The notes beneath the pieces are model-generated. The model was not told where the DNA came from. It made no database searches and worked only from the letters and a program-made list of their open reading frames with translations. Shown piece after piece: positions 2,146 through 30,743 of a DNA stretch of 34,878 bases. Where the stretch lies: assembly GCA_903933815.1 (NCBI GenBank), contig CAIZLN010000079.1:1-34878 (forward strand), given 5' to 3'. The position numbers and the translations under genes are program-made. The DNA is from an uncultured Solirubrobacterales bacterium (lineage in GTDB: Bacteria; Actinomycetota; Thermoleophilia; Solirubrobacterales; 70-9). The first letter of the stretch is position 1. Each line of letters begins with the position of its first letter.

Positions 2146-4125
2146 ATGGCGTTCAAGGCAATCAGGCTCGACTCCGGTGGCGGTCTCTCGGCGACCGTCA
2201 TTCCGGAGGCAGGGATGATCACTGTTTCCCTGGCCTTTGAGGGTGAGGAGTTCCTGGGCCAGCGCCATGGGCTTGCCGGATACGTTGAGTCGTCCAGCAC
2301 GATGGGAATCCCGATCCTCTACCCCTGGGCCAACCGACTGGCCCGTGACTCCTGGAAGTTCGGCTCCCGGCCGGCCAGGATCGATCCGGATGCCAGCCAC
2401 ATCAAGCGGGATTTGAACGGCCTCGCGATTCACGGCACGCTGGCGGCGTCCCCACTCTGGGAAGTCAACGAGGCAAAGGCCGGGGATGACCTGGGCTCGG
2501 CCACTGTGAAAGCGACCCTCGAATTCGGTGACCACCCGGAACTGCTCCAGACCTTCCCCTTCCCCCACCGGCTCGAACTGGAGTTCCGTCTCGCCGGACC
2601 GAAGCTGAGCGTGCGAACGACGGTCACTCCGACGGGTGAGTACGCGGTACCACTGGCTTACGGGTTCCATCCGTACCTGACCCTGCCCGGCAGCAGGCGC
2701 CCTGAATGGACCGTGCGCCTTCCCGCCATGTTTGCCCTGGAAACCGACTCCCGCCAGATCCCGACGGGTATTGGCAAAGCAACTGATGCTCATGAAGGTC
2801 CTCTGGAAGATCGGGACTACGACGACGCCTGCTCAGGCCTGGAAGACGGTGCCAGGTTCTCGGTCGCTGACGAACGCCACCAGGTCACGGTCAGCTTTGA
2901 ACGCGGATACCGGGCCGCCCAGATCTATTCACCTGCCGGGGAAAACTTCATCTGCTTCGAACCGATGAAGGCTCCCACCAACGCGCTGGTCAGTGGCCGG
3001 GATCTGGCCTCTGTCGAACCGGGTGACAGCGATATCTCCGAGTTCAGCATTGCGATCGGCAAGCCGGAGCCACCATCGACAACCAGCCAGGTCCATTCCG
3101 TGGGTAAGGGTGTCGAGCATGGAGGGTCGGTGAATCAACCCTCAACAGCGCCGGACAGAGGCCCAGCTCCCGGTTCCGCAGAGGCCGGGAGATCGGTGTC
3201 GACACGTTTCCGGATCGATCGCGAAGACCCCGCCGAGAGCGTTCGAAGAGTCGCCCGCAGCCGGGTGGAGTCAGCAGTGGCCAGCCTGCGTCAAGGGGCC
3301 GAATCCGACAGGGCCACGGCAGTACACACTGCCCGGAAGGACATGAAGAAGATGAGGTCGGTGCTGCGACTGGTCCGAGGCGAGCTCGGCAAGAAGACCT
3401 ACCGCGAAGAGAACCGCCGCTTTCGCGATGCGGCCAGACTGCTTTCGACCACACGTGACACCGAAGTCCTGGCTGGGACCCTCGATGCGGTTCTCCGTGA
3501 CTATCCGAGTGACGGCCCGTCGGTTGAAGGCCTGGCGAAAGACCTCGAACGACGCCGTCAACGAGCTTCTTCGGAAAGGGGAAGCTCTATCGAAGCATCT
3601 CTCGGTGAAGCCGCCGACCGGATCGAGGGCGGAGGCCGGATGATCGCGAGCTGGCCGCTCACGGAATCAGGCTGGAAGATGTTCGAGCCGGGCTTGAAGC
3701 GCTCCTACTCGGCAGGATGCAGGGATCTCGAGAGGGTGGATAAGTGTTTCCGTCGTGACCGAAGACCCGAGTCGGAGCTCATGCATGACTTCCGAAAGAG
3801 AGTCAAGGACCTCTGGTACGAGACGAGACTGCTGCGTGAAGCGTGGCCGGCCGGGCTGGAGGGGCCGGAGGCGGAAGCCGGCCTGCTTGCGGACCTGCTC
3901 GGCGAGTACAACGACCTCTCGGTACTGGCGGAAGAAATCGAGACCCGCCGTAGCGCGCCCGGCGAAGGTGAAGGGCACGATCAGGACGACTTCTCGGTGC
4001 TGGTAGAAACGATCGATGACCGCCAGAGCGTTCTGCTCGGCGAGTGCATTCCGATTGCCCGACGGCTCTTCGCTGAAGAGCCCGGCGCCTTCACGGCCAG
4101 AATCGGTGCCTACTGGTCAGCCTGA
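2146..4125 (+). CDS. Aldose 1-epimerase-like domain fused to a CHAD domain
   Basis: This single 659-residue frame carries two unrelated modules. Residues 1-305 are an aldose 1-epimerase (galactose mutarotase) domain: WANR at 61-64, H96, H175 (YGFHPYL), DD at 226-227 and the putative catalytic E272 (CFEPMKAP). Residues 306-350 are a Pro/Ser/Gly-rich linker. Residues about 355-655 form a CHAD domain, an all-helical basic fold with conserved histidines known to bind polyphosphate, seen in VHTARKDMKK (H394), MHDFRKRVKD and LLGEYNDLSVL. No signal peptide is visible, so it is probably cytoplasmic. I see no frameshift. An internal ribosome site and GTG at 3130 could also produce the CHAD part alone. 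A CATCAT hexamer 6 bases before the ATG is a weak leaderless -10. The gene converges with the VIT gene, 6 bases away. Confidence 0.85.
   Translation: MAFKAIRLDSGGGLSATVIPEAGMITVSLAFEGEEFLGQRHGLAGYVESSSTMGIPILYPWANRLARDSWKFGSRPARIDPDASHIKRDLNGLAIHGTLAASPLWEVNEAKAGDDLGSATVKATLEFGDHPELLQTFPFPHRLELEFRLAGPKLSVRTTVTPTGEYAVPLAYGFHPYLTLPGSRRPEWTVRLPAMFALETDSRQIPTGIGKATDAHEGPLEDRDYDDACSGLEDGARFSVADERHQVTVSFERGYRAAQIYSPAGENFICFEPMKAPTNALVSGRDLASVEPGDSDISEFSIAIGKPEPPSTTSQVHSVGKGVEHGGSVNQPSTAPDRGPAPGSAEAGRSVSTRFRIDREDPAESVRRVARSRVESAVASLRQGAESDRATAVHTARKDMKKMRSVLRLVRGELGKKTYREENRRFRDAARLLSTTRDTEVLAGTLDAVLRDYPSDGPSVEGLAKDLERRRQRASSERGSSIEASLGEAADRIEGGGRMIASWPLTESGWKMFEPGLKRSYSAGCRDLERVDKCFRRDRRPESELMHDFRKRVKDLWYETRLLREAWPAGLEGPEAEAGLLADLLGEYNDLSVLAEEIETRRSAPGEGEGHDQDDFSVLVETIDDRQSVLLGECIPIARRLFAEEPGAFTARIGAYWSA
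3121..3132 (+). promoter_or_regulatory. Possible internal ribosome site and GTG start for a separate CHAD protein
   Basis: GGAGGG (3121-3126) precedes an in-frame GTG (3130-3132) inside the linker between the epimerase and CHAD domains. Spacing is short (3 bases). If used, it would give a free CHAD protein of about 331 residues. Confidence 0.3.
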
Positions 4126-4131
4126 GCCGAA

Positions 4132-4908
4132 TCAGCTGATTCCCTGAAGCAGGACTCCAACCAGATAGGCAACTGCTGCGGCAGACCCCCCCAGGGCGGC
4201 AGTTTCGAAGGCTCCCCTCCAGGCAGACTGTCCGATGACCAGCGCCTTGAGGAGACCGACCAGCGCAAATGCGACGCCGGTCAGAACTGCCGCAACCAGA
4301 AAGGGTGCACCGAAGGTTCCTGGAAAGGCGAGGTTCACCAGAAACGGCAATAACGGGATCGCTCCGATGGCGAGAAACGCGACAAAGGTGGCGGCCGCCG
4401 AGCGGGAGGCCGATCCACTGTCTGAAGGAAAACCGAGCTCCTCCCTCATCATCATGTCGACCCACCGCTCACGGTCACTGGTGATCACCTCAACCGCCCG
4501 CTCAAGATCTTCCCCGCTGAACCCCTTGGCCGCGAAAAGCTGACGGACCTCCTCCCGCTCACCTTCCGGGTAGAGGTCGATATGCCTTTCCTCGGCCCGG
4601 CGGGCGACTTGCCTTTGCTGCTCGGCAGCCCGGGTGCCGAGAAAATTGCTCACTGCCATGCTGAACCCATCGGCGAACAGATTCGCCAGTCCCATGATCA
4701 AAACCACCCTCGAAGCCAGGCTGGCACCGGCCGCTCCTGCAACCACCGCGAAGGTGGTGACTGCTCCGTCGATCGCTCCGTAGACAAAATCCCGGACGTA
4801 GCTGGTGGAGGGCGCGCGGGACAGTCGCCGTCTCACCCCGTCGGGGGTGTGTTGTTCCTCAAGGTCGGAGTCGAGACCTCGTTTGCGGTCCAGCGAGCGG
4901 CTGATCAC
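4132..4908 (-). CDS. VIT1/CCC1-family Fe2+/Mn2+ transporter
   Basis: This 258-residue membrane protein matches the vacuolar iron transporter family. TM1 carries DGAVTTFAVVAG (47-58) and TM2 carries GLANLFADGFSMAVSNFLG (73-91). A charged cytoplasmic segment (about 96-160) follows, rich in Glu and Met (EERHIDLYPEGEREE, WVDMMMREELG), like the metal-binding domain of plant VIT1. Three further hydrophobic spans complete a five-TM layout. The family exports or sequesters Fe2+ and Mn2+ by proton antiport; in a bacterium this would mean metal efflux. The start is GTG at 4908, with TATGTT exactly 6 bases upstream, so it probably has its own leaderless message although it lies 35 bases after the DUF2252 gene. 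Confidence 0.88.
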   Translation of the reverse strand: MISRSLDRKRGLDSDLEEQHTPDGVRRRLSRAPSTSYVRDFVYGAIDGAVTTFAVVAGAAGASLASRVVLIMGLANLFADGFSMAVSNFLGTRAAEQQRQVARRAEERHIDLYPEGEREEVRQLFAAKGFSGEDLERAVEVITSDRERWVDMMMREELGFPSDSGSASRSAAATFVAFLAIGAIPLLPFLVNLAFPGTFGAPFLVAAVLTGVAFALVGLLKALVIGQSAWRGAFETAALGGSAAAVAYLVGVLLQGIS

Positions 4909-4943: not shown

Positions 4944-6335
4944 TCAGATGCCTCGCTCGGCTGGCAGGCGACCAGACCTGACTGCCCCTCCCAGCGCCTC
5001 GAAGTCCTGTTCGGACCGATCAGCGTAGGCCTTGGCCCAGTCTACGATCGCGCCGTCGAATACCTCCGACTGACCCAGATAGCCGTCAATAGCTGCCGAT
5101 CCGGGGCTCTGGCTGTGAGCCCGGGCCAACAGCCTGCCGCACAGGGTCGCGTACCGGAGGAAGCTGTCTGCCGACAGCAGATCCAGACTGACCGAACCCT
5201 TCATGTCGCGAAACTGCCTGACATAGAAATCCACTCCGGCACTTGTCCGAACCCAGCCCAGAAACGGGTCCGAGGCAGCCTGAAGCACCTGCTGGCACGA
5301 GACCACCCGGTAGCCCTCCAGCCTGCGGTCCCTGTCACCGAGGCCGCGAATCGGCATCGGCTTGATTCGACCCCAGGTTTCGAGGACGGAAGGCTGCGCC
5401 TCCTTGAACTGAAGAAACAGAGGGAAGTCCGACGGACCCAGCATCAGGGCAATCGCACAGCGGGTACCGACGCTGCCTACGCCGACGATGCGCAAGGCGT
5501 AGTCAACCATTCGGAACTTTGAAAAGACCAGACTCAGATCCGGGCGCAGAGTCTCCAGATAGCGTTCGATCACATGCTCCACTTCATCCCTGCCTATCGC
5601 GGTGAAGTGCTGGAGGATCGGAGGCTGATCGACGATCTTCGGGACCCCGTCCACGTCCGATGTCGTGATCTGCCTGAGCACTTCTGCGGAGTTCTTCCTG
5701 CGTGCCTTTCTGTTCAGCTTGTGCAGCTGCTCGAGGACCTCGCCGGAAGCCAGGGACTCCAGATCTTCGTACTCAACCCGGTAGTAGTACCGGTCGAGGG
5801 CAGACATCTCGTGGAGCTCGCGCGTTGTCGTGCGGTACGAACGGACTGCGGCGCGTGTCGCTTCAAGAACCTGGTCTTCCCGAAAACCGTTGTGTCGGGA
5901 GCCGATCATGACGCTGCCGGCCAGCCGCTTCACATCCCATTCCCAGGGCGCGGGGGCGGACTCATCGAAGTCGTTGAGGTCAAAGAGCAGCCTCCGCTCC
6001 GGGCTGGCAAAAAAGCCAAAGTTGGCTACGTGGGCATCCCCGCAACTGACCGCGAAAATATCCGTCCGGGCTTCGTCGGCGAGGTCGTTGGCCATCACTG
6101 CGGCGGTTCCCCGGTAGAAGGCGAACGGCGACTCCAGCATCCGCCCGATCCGCACCGGGACCAGGCCCTGAAGGCGCGATGAATTCTGCTTCTCGATGAT
6201 CGCCACCGGATCCCGATCGGATGGGTGAGGCTCACAGTGTCGGGTTCGCGGCATGGTCGACCTCAGACTCTTGCCCCAGGCGCGCGCGTCAGACGTACTG
6301 TGCTCGAAGCGGAATGAAGGGTCCACCCTGGCCAT
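4944..6335 (-). CDS. DUF2252 family protein (first copy)
   Basis: This 463-residue protein of unknown function is clearly DUF2252. Diagnostic segments are PVRIGRMLESPFAFYRGTAA, CGDAHVANFGFFASPERR and LLFDLNDFDESAPAPWEWD. The GDAHxxNFG then FDxNDFDE pattern resembles the catalytic loop and metal-binding DFD of aminoglycoside phosphotransferase-like kinases, so a kinase-like fold is my inference, not a demonstrated activity. Its ATG overlaps the helicase stop by one base (TGATG), implying translational coupling to that gene. A second DUF2252 gene lies at 27401-28957, with the same motifs but a different N-terminus. No signal peptide or membrane span is seen. Confidence 0.88.
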   Translation of the reverse strand: MARVDPSFRFEHSTSDARAWGKSLRSTMPRTRHCEPHPSDRDPVAIIEKQNSSRLQGLVPVRIGRMLESPFAFYRGTAAVMANDLADEARTDIFAVSCGDAHVANFGFFASPERRLLFDLNDFDESAPAPWEWDVKRLAGSVMIGSRHNGFREDQVLEATRAAVRSYRTTTRELHEMSALDRYYYRVEYEDLESLASGEVLEQLHKLNRKARRKNSAEVLRQITTSDVDGVPKIVDQPPILQHFTAIGRDEVEHVIERYLETLRPDLSLVFSKFRMVDYALRIVGVGSVGTRCAIALMLGPSDFPLFLQFKEAQPSVLETWGRIKPMPIRGLGDRDRRLEGYRVVSCQQVLQAASDPFLGWVRTSAGVDFYVRQFRDMKGSVSLDLLSADSFLRYATLCGRLLARAHSQSPGSAAIDGYLGQSEVFDGAIVDWAKAYADRSEQDFEALGGAVRSGRLPAERGI

Positions 6336-8183: not shown

Positions 8184-8852
8184 TCACCGGCCCGGGCTGG
8201 ACCTGCAGCGCAGAAACAGCAGCATGGCCTGGGTCAGGGCAAGCCCCGCAAGCAGGCCCGAGGCGATTGCCCAGAATGCGTCCGGATAGAGCCTTCGCAG
8301 CGTTTCATCGTCACCGAATGTCCACGTGCCCGGCTCGAAGAAGATTTCGTGAAAGCCGTCGAATATCGCGTCGAAGCTGACCAGCATGGCGACACCGATC
8401 AAGGCCATGGCGCCGATCGTGATAGCCGAACCCAGTCTCAGGCCCCGGCGGACAGCATCACTGCGGCCAGCCCTGCGCAGCCTTGAGGCGGCCACCGCAC
8501 CGACAGCAAGCGAGATCAACCAGAGTGCGAAGCAGCCCTGAACCAGACCACGCACATCACCCATGTGACGTATCTCGACCGGTCCGAATGCCATCGAACC
8601 ATCGGGCAGCCTGGCATCCACCAGGAGGTCGGTCCCCGGGCCGATCGGCCAGATCGACCGGATACCGGTTGCCCCGAGTGATGCCCGGTCACCGCCTGCG
8701 AGCCCGAACGGGTCATCAGGAAAACCCGGCAGCGCATACTGAAGGTCGGCAAACCACGGTATTAGCAACACGATCAGGGCGTTGCCGAGTATCACCAGTG
8801 GTACAGCTGCCGCAATCACGGCGATCAGTGGGCCGACAGCCTTGTCACTCAC
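8184..8852 (-). CDS. DUF1461 / TIGR01906 family integral membrane protein
   Basis: This protein of 222 residues has about four membrane spans: residues about 10-30, one near the middle, one before FDAIFDGFHEIFFEPGTW, and a C-terminal one after DAFWAIAS. FHEIFFEPGTWTFGDDETL followed by RRLYPDAFW is the hallmark of the DUF1461/TIGR01906 family, whose function is unknown. A longer frame from ATG at 8921 would overlap the divergent SRPBCC gene. GTG at 8852 is preferred because TACGAT lies exactly 6 bases upstream and the hydrophobic N-terminus starts there. It precedes the helicase gene by 79 bases on the same strand. Confidence 0.82.
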   Translation of the reverse strand: MSDKAVGPLIAVIAAAVPLVILGNALIVLLIPWFADLQYALPGFPDDPFGLAGGDRASLGATGIRSIWPIGPGTDLLVDARLPDGSMAFGPVEIRHMGDVRGLVQGCFALWLISLAVGAVAASRLRRAGRSDAVRRGLRLGSAITIGAMALIGVAMLVSFDAIFDGFHEIFFEPGTWTFGDDETLRRLYPDAFWAIASGLLAGLALTQAMLLFLRCRSSPGR

Positions 8853-8858
8853 CGGGCG

Positions 8859-8864
8859 ATCGTA
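8859..8864 (-). promoter_or_regulatory. -10 box (TACGAT) of the DUF1461 gene
   Basis: TACGAT, then CGCCCG, then GTG at 8852 on the minus strand. This leaderless layout decides the start codon. Confidence 0.5.
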
Positions 8865-8902
8865 GCGGGGCCGACACACGCGATCCGTCATCATCCCGGT
8901 AC

Positions 8903-9337
8903 ATGGCCTCCTACAGAACAACAGCCAAAAGCCCGATGACCCCTGAGCAGACGTTCGAGTACCTCGCCGACTTCAGCACGGCAGCCGAATGGGATGCGAA
9001 CACAAAGTCTTCCGACCTGGTCAGCGGGGAAGCAACGAGCGAAGGGGCCGAGTACAGGGTGGTCACCGAATTCGCCGGTCGCGACCTGACCCTCACCTAC
9101 CGGACCACTGAGCTTCAGCGGCCCGGAAAGATCGTCTTCCAGAGCGGAACTGCTGTGGCCGACATCGAGGACGTGATCACGATCACTCCGGACGGCTCCG
9201 GCAGCAAGGTCAGCTACGAGGCAAACATCAAGCCGAGATCGATAGCCATCGTGCTCGACCCGCTCTTCAGCCTGATCTTCAAGCGGGTCGGCGACCGTGC
9301 GGCAAAGAGCCTCAAGGAGACACTGGCCTCGAAATGA
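8903..9337 (+). CDS. SRPBCC (START/polyketide-cyclase-like) family protein
   Basis: This 144-residue single-domain protein shows the SRPBCC hydrophobic-pocket pattern: an opening strand (MASYRTTAKSPMTPEQTFEY), then LADFSTAAEWDANTKSSDLV, a central series of strands, and a long C-terminal helix (FKRVGDRAAKSLKETL). The family binds or transforms small hydrophobic ligands. The specific ligand cannot be read. The frame is open further upstream, but ATG at 8903 is where family similarity begins. A CATCAT hexamer lies 8 bases upstream. The stop overlaps the next start (ATGA), coupling it to the FAD protein and suggesting a shared substrate. Confidence 0.8.
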   Translation: MASYRTTAKSPMTPEQTFEYLADFSTAAEWDANTKSSDLVSGEATSEGAEYRVVTEFAGRDLTLTYRTTELQRPGKIVFQSGTAVADIEDVITITPDGSGSKVSYEANIKPRSIAIVLDPLFSLIFKRVGDRAAKSLKETLASK

Positions 9338-27368: not shown

Positions 27369-27404
27369 CTCCCGAGATCCCCGGGAGGCTGACGCAGGAG
27401 TCAG
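27369..27404. terminator. Hairpins between ppdK and the second DUF2252 gene
   Basis: CTCCCG-AGATCCC-CGGGAG (27369-27387) and CTGAC-6 bases-GTCAG (27389-27404) lie in the 67-base convergent gap. The second overlaps the DUF2252 stop. There is no U-tract, so termination efficiency is uncertain. Confidence 0.45.
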
Positions 27405-28957
27405 TCTGATGGCTCCTCTACCTCTATGCGGCCGCTGTCGCGGGCATCGAGCAGGGCCCGGTAATCACGCTCGTTCTGATCGGCATACGCGACAGAAAAG
27501 GCAGCAATCGCCCGATCAAAGCTGTCATTCTTGCCGAGATATGAGGCCAGCGCGAAACGGTTTCCGGTTCGGGCATGGGACCGGGCGAGGGTCCGGCCAC
27601 AGAGCAGACCGTAGATACCCATCGCACGGGGACTCATCTTTTCCACCCGGGCAGTCCCTTTCCAGTCCCAAAGCTGTCGAACGTAGAAGTCCCGCTTGAT
27701 ACCGTCGAAGCCCTCAGCGGTGGTCCACCCGAGAAAGATGTCGCTCGCGGTCTGGGTCAGCCTCTGTCCCTCGACGACCCGACGGCCGTGCTTGCCATAA
27801 CGACTGGCCCCGACAAACGGCTCAAGTACCGATTCCTGTGCCTCCTTCAGCTGAAGGAAGAGTGGGTCGCCCGTGTCGCGTCCGACCATCAGCACGATCC
27901 AGGCGCGCGTACCGACACTTCCGACGCCGACAACCTTGAACGCAGCGTGCACGTACTCGTACTCATCCAAGAGCACCCGACGGTCCGGGTTGAGGCTCTC
28001 CCGGTAAGAAGCGAGGATCTTCCGGACCCGATCGTCGAGTTCGAGGTGCTTCTCCGGCGGAACGAGGTGGTCCAGGGGAGTGATCGTAGGGGGATCTTCA
28101 ATGATCCTGAGTTGGCCGTCGACGATGTGGGTCAGCTTGGAGAACGCCCTGAGCCTGTCTTTTCCCTTCGCCTTGGCCACACGGCGTTCCAGGCCAAGAC
28201 GCTCGGACTCGCCGAGGTCCCCGGACCGCTCCGCGTAGACCGAATCAACATCAAGATGCCAGTTCCAGACATCGAGGTTTCCCATGGCCGCAAACTCAGC
28301 CATCGCCTCTCGGTACTGGCCGGCAACAGCGAGAACCACCTGCCTCCGCTCTTTCCTGCTGAAACCGCGGTCGCGACCACCTATCTCAAAGCTCGCGGCA
28401 AGTCGCTTTATATCCCACTCCCAGGGGCCCGGGAGGGTCTCGTCAAAGTCGTTGATGTCAAAGACGAGACGTCGTTCCGGAGAAGCGAAAGCCCCGAAGT
28501 TGGAGAGGTGCGCGTCACCACAAGCCTGAACCTTCATGCCCGTGACCGGACTCCTGGCCAGGTCGGCCACCATGATTGCCGCTGCTCCGCGGTAGAAAGT
28601 AAAAGCAGAAGCGAGCATCCGGCCGTAGCGGACCGGAATCAGCTGAGGCAAACGTGTCTTGGCCTGATCCTCAAGGATGTCAACCGGATCCGGACGATCC
28701 TCTGGCAGAGCGAGGTCCGCCAGGGTCGAACGCGGTACCCGCTTCCGCGCTGCCTTGCCCGTCGCCTCGCCTTCAGCCAGGTGCCGGCCTGTGCCGGGGA
28801 CAGCAGCGAGCACCTGCTGCTCTTCCCTGGCCTCACGCACCTGCTTACCGATCCTTGAGCGGGAGGCCTCCGCTTCCCGCGCAGCAGCCTTTTTGCCTGA
28901 GCTGGACCTGGATCCGGGCTTCGACCTGGACTTTGACTTCGACTTCGACTTGGCCAT
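27401..28957 (-). CDS. DUF2252 family protein (second copy) with Lys/Ser-rich N-terminal tail
   Basis: This 518-residue protein is paralogous to the product of 4944-6335. Shared segments are PVRYGRMLASAFTFYRGAAA, CGDAHLSNFGAFASPERR, VFDINDFDETLPGPWEWD and, later, VGVGSVGTRAWIVLMVGRD. The GDAHxxNFG/DFDE pattern again resembles an APH-like kinase loop (inference). Unlike the first copy it starts with a basic low-complexity tail (MAKSKSKSKSRSKPGSR...), encoded by hexamer-like DNA repeats. The tail could bind polyanions such as nucleic acid or polyphosphate; PPK2 is encoded 1 kb away. ATG at 28957 is supported by TATCAT 8 bases upstream. It converges with ppdK. Confidence 0.88.
   Translation of the reverse strand: MAKSKSKSKSRSKPGSRSSSGKKAAAREAEASRSRIGKQVREAREEQQVLAAVPGTGRHLAEGEATGKAARKRVPRSTLADLALPEDRPDPVDILEDQAKTRLPQLIPVRYGRMLASAFTFYRGAAAIMVADLARSPVTGMKVQACGDAHLSNFGAFASPERRLVFDINDFDETLPGPWEWDIKRLAASFEIGGRDRGFSRKERRQVVLAVAGQYREAMAEFAAMGNLDVWNWHLDVDSVYAERSGDLGESERLGLERRVAKAKGKDRLRAFSKLTHIVDGQLRIIEDPPTITPLDHLVPPEKHLELDDRVRKILASYRESLNPDRRVLLDEYEYVHAAFKVVGVGSVGTRAWIVLMVGRDTGDPLFLQLKEAQESVLEPFVGASRYGKHGRRVVEGQRLTQTASDIFLGWTTAEGFDGIKRDFYVRQLWDWKGTARVEKMSPRAMGIYGLLCGRTLARSHARTGNRFALASYLGKNDSFDRAIAAFSVAYADQNERDYRALLDARDSGRIEVEEPSD
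28919..28953 (-). repeat. Imperfect hexamer repeat coding a Lys/Ser tail
   Basis: GACTTC-like hexamers (plus-strand sense) are repeated several times with small changes, coding alternating Lys and Ser at the start of the second DUF2252 protein. Such repeats can change length by slippage. Confidence 0.5.
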
Positions 28958-29936: not shown

Positions 29937-30743
29937 ATGGGCAAAGGACCGGAAGAACCTCGGGAACTCAGCAAGCGCCAGTACGAAAAGGAGCTCGAAC
30001 TGCTGCAGACCGAGTTGGTGCGGATGCAGGAGTGGATCGTCGAGGCCGGCCTGCGGGTCGTGGTGCTCTTCGAAGGCCGTGACACGGCTGGCAAGGGCGG
30101 AGTGATCAAGCGCATCACGGAGAGGACGAGCCCCCGCGTGATCCGTACCGTAGCCCTTACGACACCGACCGAGCGCGAGAAGACCCAGTGGTACTTCCAG
30201 CGGTATGTCGCGCACCTGCCGGCTGCCGGCGAGATGGTCCTGTTCGATCGCAGCTGGTACAACCGCGCCGGGGTCGAGCGTGTCATGGGTTTCTGCACCG
30301 ATGACGAGTATCAGGAGTTCATGCGTTCAGCCCCGCGCTTCGAACGCATGCTCCAGCGCTCCGGAATCATTTTGATCAAGTACTGGCTCTCGATATCCGA
30401 CGAGGAGCAGGAGAAGCGGTTCAAGGCCCGCATCAAGGATCCCTCCAAGCACTGGAAGCTGAGCCCCATGGACATAGAGGCCCGTGCCCGCTGGGTTGAC
30501 TACGCCGAAGCCAAGGACGAGATGTTCGCCTACACAGACACGAGACAGACCCCATGGTTTGTGGTCGACACCGACAGCAAGAAGACCGCCCGGCTGAACC
30601 TGATCAGCCACCTGCTCCAGCAGGTCCCCTACAAGTCAGTCAAGCAGGACAAGATCAAACTGCCGCCCCGGCAGGAGCGCTCATACGTGCGGCCTCCGGC
30701 CGACTCCCAGACGTATGTGCCAACCCGTTTTCTGGTCGACTGA
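29937..30743 (+). CDS. ppk2: Polyphosphate kinase 2
   Basis: This 268-residue single-domain PPK2 (class I-like length) transfers phosphate between polyphosphate and nucleoside di- or monophosphates. Walker A is FEGRDTAGKGG (45-55), the Walker B region is VLFDRSWYNRAGVERVMGFC (101-120) with D104, and the lid-like segment is RFKARIKDPSKHWKLSPMD. The basic residues K53, R48 and R105 are in place for polyphosphate binding. It is cytosolic. The start is fixed by TAGACT 6 bases upstream. It is the only clear polyphosphate enzyme here, but a CHAD fusion lies at 2146-4125. A strong hairpin separates it from the convergent acyl-CoA dehydrogenase. Confidence 0.93.
   Translation: MGKGPEEPRELSKRQYEKELELLQTELVRMQEWIVEAGLRVVVLFEGRDTAGKGGVIKRITERTSPRVIRTVALTTPTEREKTQWYFQRYVAHLPAAGEMVLFDRSWYNRAGVERVMGFCTDDEYQEFMRSAPRFERMLQRSGIILIKYWLSISDEEQEKRFKARIKDPSKHWKLSPMDIEARARWVDYAEAKDEMFAYTDTRQTPWFVVDTDSKKTARLNLISHLLQQVPYKSVKQDKIKLPPRQERSYVRPPADSQTYVPTRFLVD

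Follow-up and report, generated by a model that had tools for sequence, protein, structure and literature searches.

A single frame joins an aldose 1-epimerase to a CHAD domain

We analyzed a window of 34,878 nucleotides, which is one whole contig of a 2.03-Mb assembly (genome G000) that comprises 168 contigs and is about 95% complete. Judged by its genes, the source may be an actinobacterium. On the forward strand, positions 2146-4125 form a single open reading frame that runs from an ATG start to a TGA stop and encodes 659 amino acids with no internal stop. Annotation with Pfam places an aldose 1-epimerase domain (Aldose_epim, PF01263) at residues 5-295 (positions 2158-3030; E 5.3e-19, 69.1 bits against a cut-off of 27) and a CHAD domain (PF05235) at residues 384-598 (positions 3292-3939; E 1.1e-27, 97.9 bits against a cut-off of 25.6). 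Between them lies a linker of residues ~306-353 (positions 3061-3204). CHAD domains are known alone or joined to CYTH enzymes that cut polyphosphate (polyP). Both families, and enzyme-CHAD fusions in the case of CYTH, are already known; a search of the literature found no published mutarotase-CHAD protein, and papers that mention CHAD domains together with epimerases look unrelated from their titles.

Elsewhere in the window, a PPK2 polyphosphate kinase is encoded at 29937-30743 on the forward strand (PF03976, E 9e-105). On the reverse strand are two DUF2252 genes, at 4947-6335 (E 5e-126) and 27404-28957 (E 5e-140), the latter about 1 kb from PPK2. A further reverse-strand frame (8187-8921) matches the Lit lipoprotein transacylase family (E 1e-15), and a homologue of it follows the fusion in one congener (G017).

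The fusion is conserved within the genus

The genus set comprised 18 genomes, namely G000 and 17 congeners, all relatives being known from sequence alone and several as incomplete assemblies. Full-length orthologues of the fusion were found in G003, G004, G005 and G017, so that it is present in 5 of the 18 genomes. These four proteins are 46-59% identical to the window protein over the whole length and are each encoded in one frame, which bears out the original prediction of one uninterrupted epimerase-CHAD frame. The same frame in four other assemblies also rules out a stop loss or an assembly error. Compared with G004, the window protein is 68% identical in the epimerase half, 56% in the CHAD half and 21% in the linker, and in both domains third codon positions are about twice as divergent as first and second positions. 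G003, G005 and G017 have a far shorter linker than the window and G004, and that of the window protein is predicted to be disordered (pLDDT below 50 over residues 313-354 of a predicted structure). The constraint on the domains and the drift of the linker argue that both domains and their joining have been maintained. Judged by these comparisons, the epimerase-CHAD fusion is a conserved gene and not a chance frame.

Outside the genus, no fusion was found among family (50), class (399) and phylum (396) genomes, about 760 different genomes in total, in a search queried with the window protein, which fusions of very distant halves may escape. In these other relatives the epimerase and CHAD halves are separate and unlinked. 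Relatives encoding the two halves as adjacent separate genes, named earlier as the observation that would speak against a genuine fusion, were looked for among the ~760 genomes and not found. Three other long epimerase frames (L055, L059, L060) were considered as fusions and rejected, as no second Pfam domain lies inside them.

The epimerase half is expected to be an active enzyme

The original prediction had named H96, H175 and E272 as putative catalytic residues. All three sit where claimed (codons at 2431-2433, 2668-2670 and 2959-2961) and, together with a predicted active-site aspartate, D226 (2821-2823), they do not vary across 15 aligned homologues, among them acidobacterial sequences of 35-37% identity. 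E272 is the predicted catalytic base. The residue classes are of the GalM type and match the positions named in the titles of Lactococcus lactis GalM mutant entries (H96, H170, D243 and E304), an equivalence taken from the family alignment and not from superposition.

Profile matches in the PDB include Bacillus subtilis GalM (E 2e-35), Slr1438, human GalM and yeast hexose-6-phosphate mutarotase. The predicted structure shows a GalM fold for the epimerase half, with pLDDT mostly between 70 and 95 and TM-scores (target length) of 0.84 to Slr1438 (3k25) and 0.80 to B. subtilis GalM (4bze). The additional alignment rows supplied to this model were epimerase homologues only, and its CHAD half is of low confidence and was left uninterpreted. 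The invariant catalytic residues and the fold match lead us to expect that the epimerase half is an active enzyme.

The protein resembles the GalM enzymes of L. lactis, B. subtilis and Slr1438 in its fold and in the positions of the two histidines, the aspartate and the glutamate, but differs from them in adding a CHAD domain and in scoring 42.6 bits on the NCBIfam aldose-1-epimerase equivalog, far short of its cut-off of 251. No specific epimerase subfamily was assigned by NCBIfam. Yeast GAL10 (1z45) offers a precedent for a mutarotase fused to another module, although its partner is UDP-galactose 4-epimerase, an enzyme of the same pathway and not a polyP-binding module. No Aldose_epim other than the fused copy was found in G000 or G005; G003 and G004 have an additional, separate Aldose_epim that scores better than the fused copy.

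The CHAD half appears to retain most of the central polyP contacts

A profile built from eleven relatives matches the CHAD protein CtCHAD (6qv7 and 3e0s, E 7e-7). CtCHAD has been crystallized with polyP bound, and its residues H253, R256, R260, R296, R418 and Y419 were mutated and tested (PMC6537752). After checking the numbering offset against every residue named in that paper, we aligned these six contacts to H394, R397 and K401 (3325-3348), R437 (3454-3456) and W557-Y558 (3814-3819) of the window protein, respectively. Four are identical, including the invariant R437; the replacement of R260 by K401 is conservative, and R418 is lost to W557. Most of the central contacts thus appear to be kept. 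Tryptophan at W557 is invariant throughout this CHAD subgroup, CYTH-CHADs included, and so its presence does not indicate that the fusion is decaying. The distal basic patches of CtCHAD (R385, K386, K389, K390, R438 and K441) are less well matched, with two of six falling on a consensus arginine in a region where the alignment is weak.

Across fused and CYTH-linked CHADs, 39 columns are invariant, including the HxxRK-xxKKxR and RD motifs. As a whole, this half carries a net charge of -2 in the window protein, though local charge may differ. The original prediction had pointed to the conserved histidines of the CHAD domain; these turn out to be a poor guide, as polyP binding in CtCHAD is credited to basic residues and one histidine (PMC6537752). 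The CHAD half of the fusion is likely to bind polyP.

Phylogenies suggest that the epimerase replaced a CYTH domain

The CHAD tree unites the five fused CHADs with a CHAD-only protein from G002 (100/98), and this clade lies inside a group (100/100) holding CYTH-CHADs of the same family. The fused copies also form a single clade (100/98) in the epimerase tree, where they join (100/99) stand-alone copies of another family of the same order and not their own family's stand-alone epimerase. Of the congeners that lack the fusion, six (G001, G007, G009, G010, G011 and G013) carry a CYTH-CHAD, and no CYTH was seen in four of the five fusion genomes (G003, G004, G005 and G017). The fifth, G000, has CYTH as a separate gene of 158 amino acids on another contig, C36 (L140:1492-1965, forward strand); it ends where CHAD begins in related CYTH-CHAD proteins, and its placement in a small tree is without support. 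Read by eye, the frames next to it are glutamyl-tRNA synthetase-like and thioredoxin-like.

The nesting of the fused CHADs among CYTH-CHADs, combined with the kinship of the epimerase half to stand-alone copies of another family, suggests as the simplest reading that an epimerase took the place of CYTH ahead of CHAD. The window protein resembles CYTH(TTM)-CHAD proteins, of the Escherichia coli YgiF short-chain polyphosphatase type, in having a C-terminal CHAD behind an N-terminal enzyme domain. It differs in that its N-terminus is Aldose_epim, a sugar mutarotase with no obvious action on polyP, and not a triphosphate-tunnel phosphatase of the CYTH family with the ExExK motif. Stand-alone CHADs beside ppk, one of which adjoins PPK1 in G000 itself, share the CHAD family but have no enzyme domain, and the fused CHAD falls into a different subgroup, one derived from CYTH-CHADs.

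The G002 locus holds CHAD without the epimerase at the syntenic site, followed by DUF2855 and FKBP genes as in G003 and G005. The G002 CHAD and the fused CHAD of G005 are sisters (100/100), and the tree of ppk-linked CHADs also pairs G002 with G005 (98/99). This second tree serves as a rough species tree, in which the six fusion-locus genomes are weakly grouped (54/68) and one row, G006, is misread. Given the sisterhood of G002 and G005 in both trees, it is most likely that the fusion is older and that G002 lost the epimerase domain. Compared with the G003 locus, that of G002 is missing just the epimerase domain and the gene for fructosamine-3-kinase (FN3K), and the upstream FAD_binding_4 proteins are 48% identical. 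One deletion might yield the G002 locus from a G003-like ancestor, but this step is uncertain, since the sister G005 has other genes upstream. The retention of CHAD without the epimerase implies that the link between the two has been dispensable at least once.

G002 also has its own family's stand-alone epimerase at another locus. In G002 and G061 a gene for cytochrome bd oxidase subunit II immediately precedes this epimerase (L084:6369-8463; L090:1-1488). The read-through of the two genes at L090 (G061) was rejected as a fusion; it is probably a frameshift, as the frame breaks inside the epimerase.

A candidate polyP-anchored mutarotase

We infer activity, binding, localization, substrate and benefit from sequence, and on this basis we give an even chance to the reading that the mutarotase is active and that CHAD, as a borrowed adaptor, tethers it to polyP. 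More specifically, the gene would encode one two-domain protein in which a catalytically competent GalM-fold mutarotase is connected through a flexible linker to a polyP-binding CHAD. It would have arisen when the CYTH domain (short-chain polyphosphatase-type) of a CYTH-CHAD was swapped for an epimerase related to the copies of another family. CHAD, a pre-existing adaptor, would concentrate the mutarotase at polyP or polyP granules, where it could help the anomers of a locally used sugar to interconvert faster, possibly for a sugar or ketosamine kinase.

PolyP itself is probably made in this organism. The genome has PPK1 beside its second, stand-alone CHAD and PPK2 in the window, in agreement with the polyP link drawn in the original prediction. 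Several observations nevertheless weaken the tether reading: R418 is replaced by tryptophan, the distal basic patches do not survive as a group at the aligned positions (in a weakly aligned region), the overall charge of the CHAD half is only slightly negative, though with possible local differences, and G002 keeps CHAD without the epimerase. In addition, no polyP glucokinase scored above the NF045942 cut-off in any of the 18 genus genomes. Such an enzyme would draw on polyP and glucose alike, and without it the most obvious role for a mutarotase at polyP falls away.

If the tether reading is true, CHAD would serve here as an exchangeable targeting tag on an enzyme with no use for polyP, and polyP granules would be tied to sugar metabolism. 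The genus would then offer a natural series of species with CYTH-CHAD, species with epimerase-CHAD and one with CHAD alone at the fusion locus. More tentatively, and with rather more doubt than belief, we consider that a polyP-anchored mutarotase may occupy the enzyme slot of CYTH-CHAD, with polyP organizing or regulating sugar or glycation-repair chemistry and CHAD as a modular address tag.

The main alternative to the polyP tether, which we regard as unlikely but worth weighing, is that the fusion serves glycation repair or ketosamine/sugar metabolism together with FN3K (PF03881). The epimerase would supply or clear an anomer, and CHAD would be secondary, contributing solubility, oligomerization or general anion binding. 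Wherever a fusion genome has FN3K, namely in G003, G004 and G017 (L080:9940-10956, L081:2098-3009, L083:1556-2404), the gene is the divergent neighbor of the fusion, and its joint absence with the epimerase domain from the G002 locus, relative to G003, points in the same direction. Two stand-alone epimerases elsewhere adjoin sugar kinases, a glucokinase and a PfkB kinase. However, FN3K is absent from G000 and G005 and present in five congeners without the fusion, and a single deletion can take out neighbors that have no functional link.

Slightly less probable still is that the CHAD half has no polyP function and is a relic or scaffold, which would make the protein a mutarotase with a C-terminal extension. 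The lost R418 contact and the incomplete distal patches would fit such a history, as would the somewhat faster evolution of the CHAD half seen against G004. On the other hand, the invariant columns shared with CYTH-linked CHADs and the 98-bit Pfam score speak against it, and in G002 it is the epimerase that was lost and CHAD that stayed, contrary to the expectation for a relic.

The original prediction had also raised the possibility that the epimerase fold is reused as a sensor. In this form, a non-enzymatic sugar sensor or scaffold would control a CHAD effector, and chains of the plant NDH-PSI complex among the structural matches suggest that non-enzymatic uses of the fold may exist. We found no support for the idea and consider it very improbable, as the four GalM catalytic positions are invariant with those of stand-alone enzymes and the searches of G000 and G005 found no Aldose_epim besides the fused one.

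A conserved upstream motif supports the annotated start

No Shine-Dalgarno sequence lies ahead of the full-length ATG. Instead, the start codon is preceded by CATCAT and 6 nucleotides (2134-2145), and the corresponding motif NATCAT-N6-(A/G)TG precedes six of six starts, those of the five fusions and of the G002 CHAD-only frame (relatives' loci L080, L081, L082, L083 and L085). The ATCAT core at start-codon spacing has two matches on both strands of the window, one of which is the fusion start. The conservation of the motif suggests that it is the -10 element of a leaderless mRNA, and supports the annotated ATG as the start of the mutarotase-CHAD protein.

The earlier proposal of two products, the full fusion and a CHAD-only protein from an in-frame internal GTG (3130-3132, codon 329), can draw on a GGAGGG (3121-3126) and on the missing Shine-Dalgarno sequence at the full-length start, but we give it hardly any weight and take the signal as probably incidental, as the spacing is a short 3 nucleotides, the linker is the least conserved part of the protein, and the linkers of G003 and G004 have no in-frame start codon and those of G005 and G017 none with a comparable signal, so that a CHAD-only product is not a conserved feature.

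Other starts in the window, at 4908 and 29813 on the reverse strand and at 29937 on the forward strand, carry the motif TANNNT-N6-(A/G)TG.
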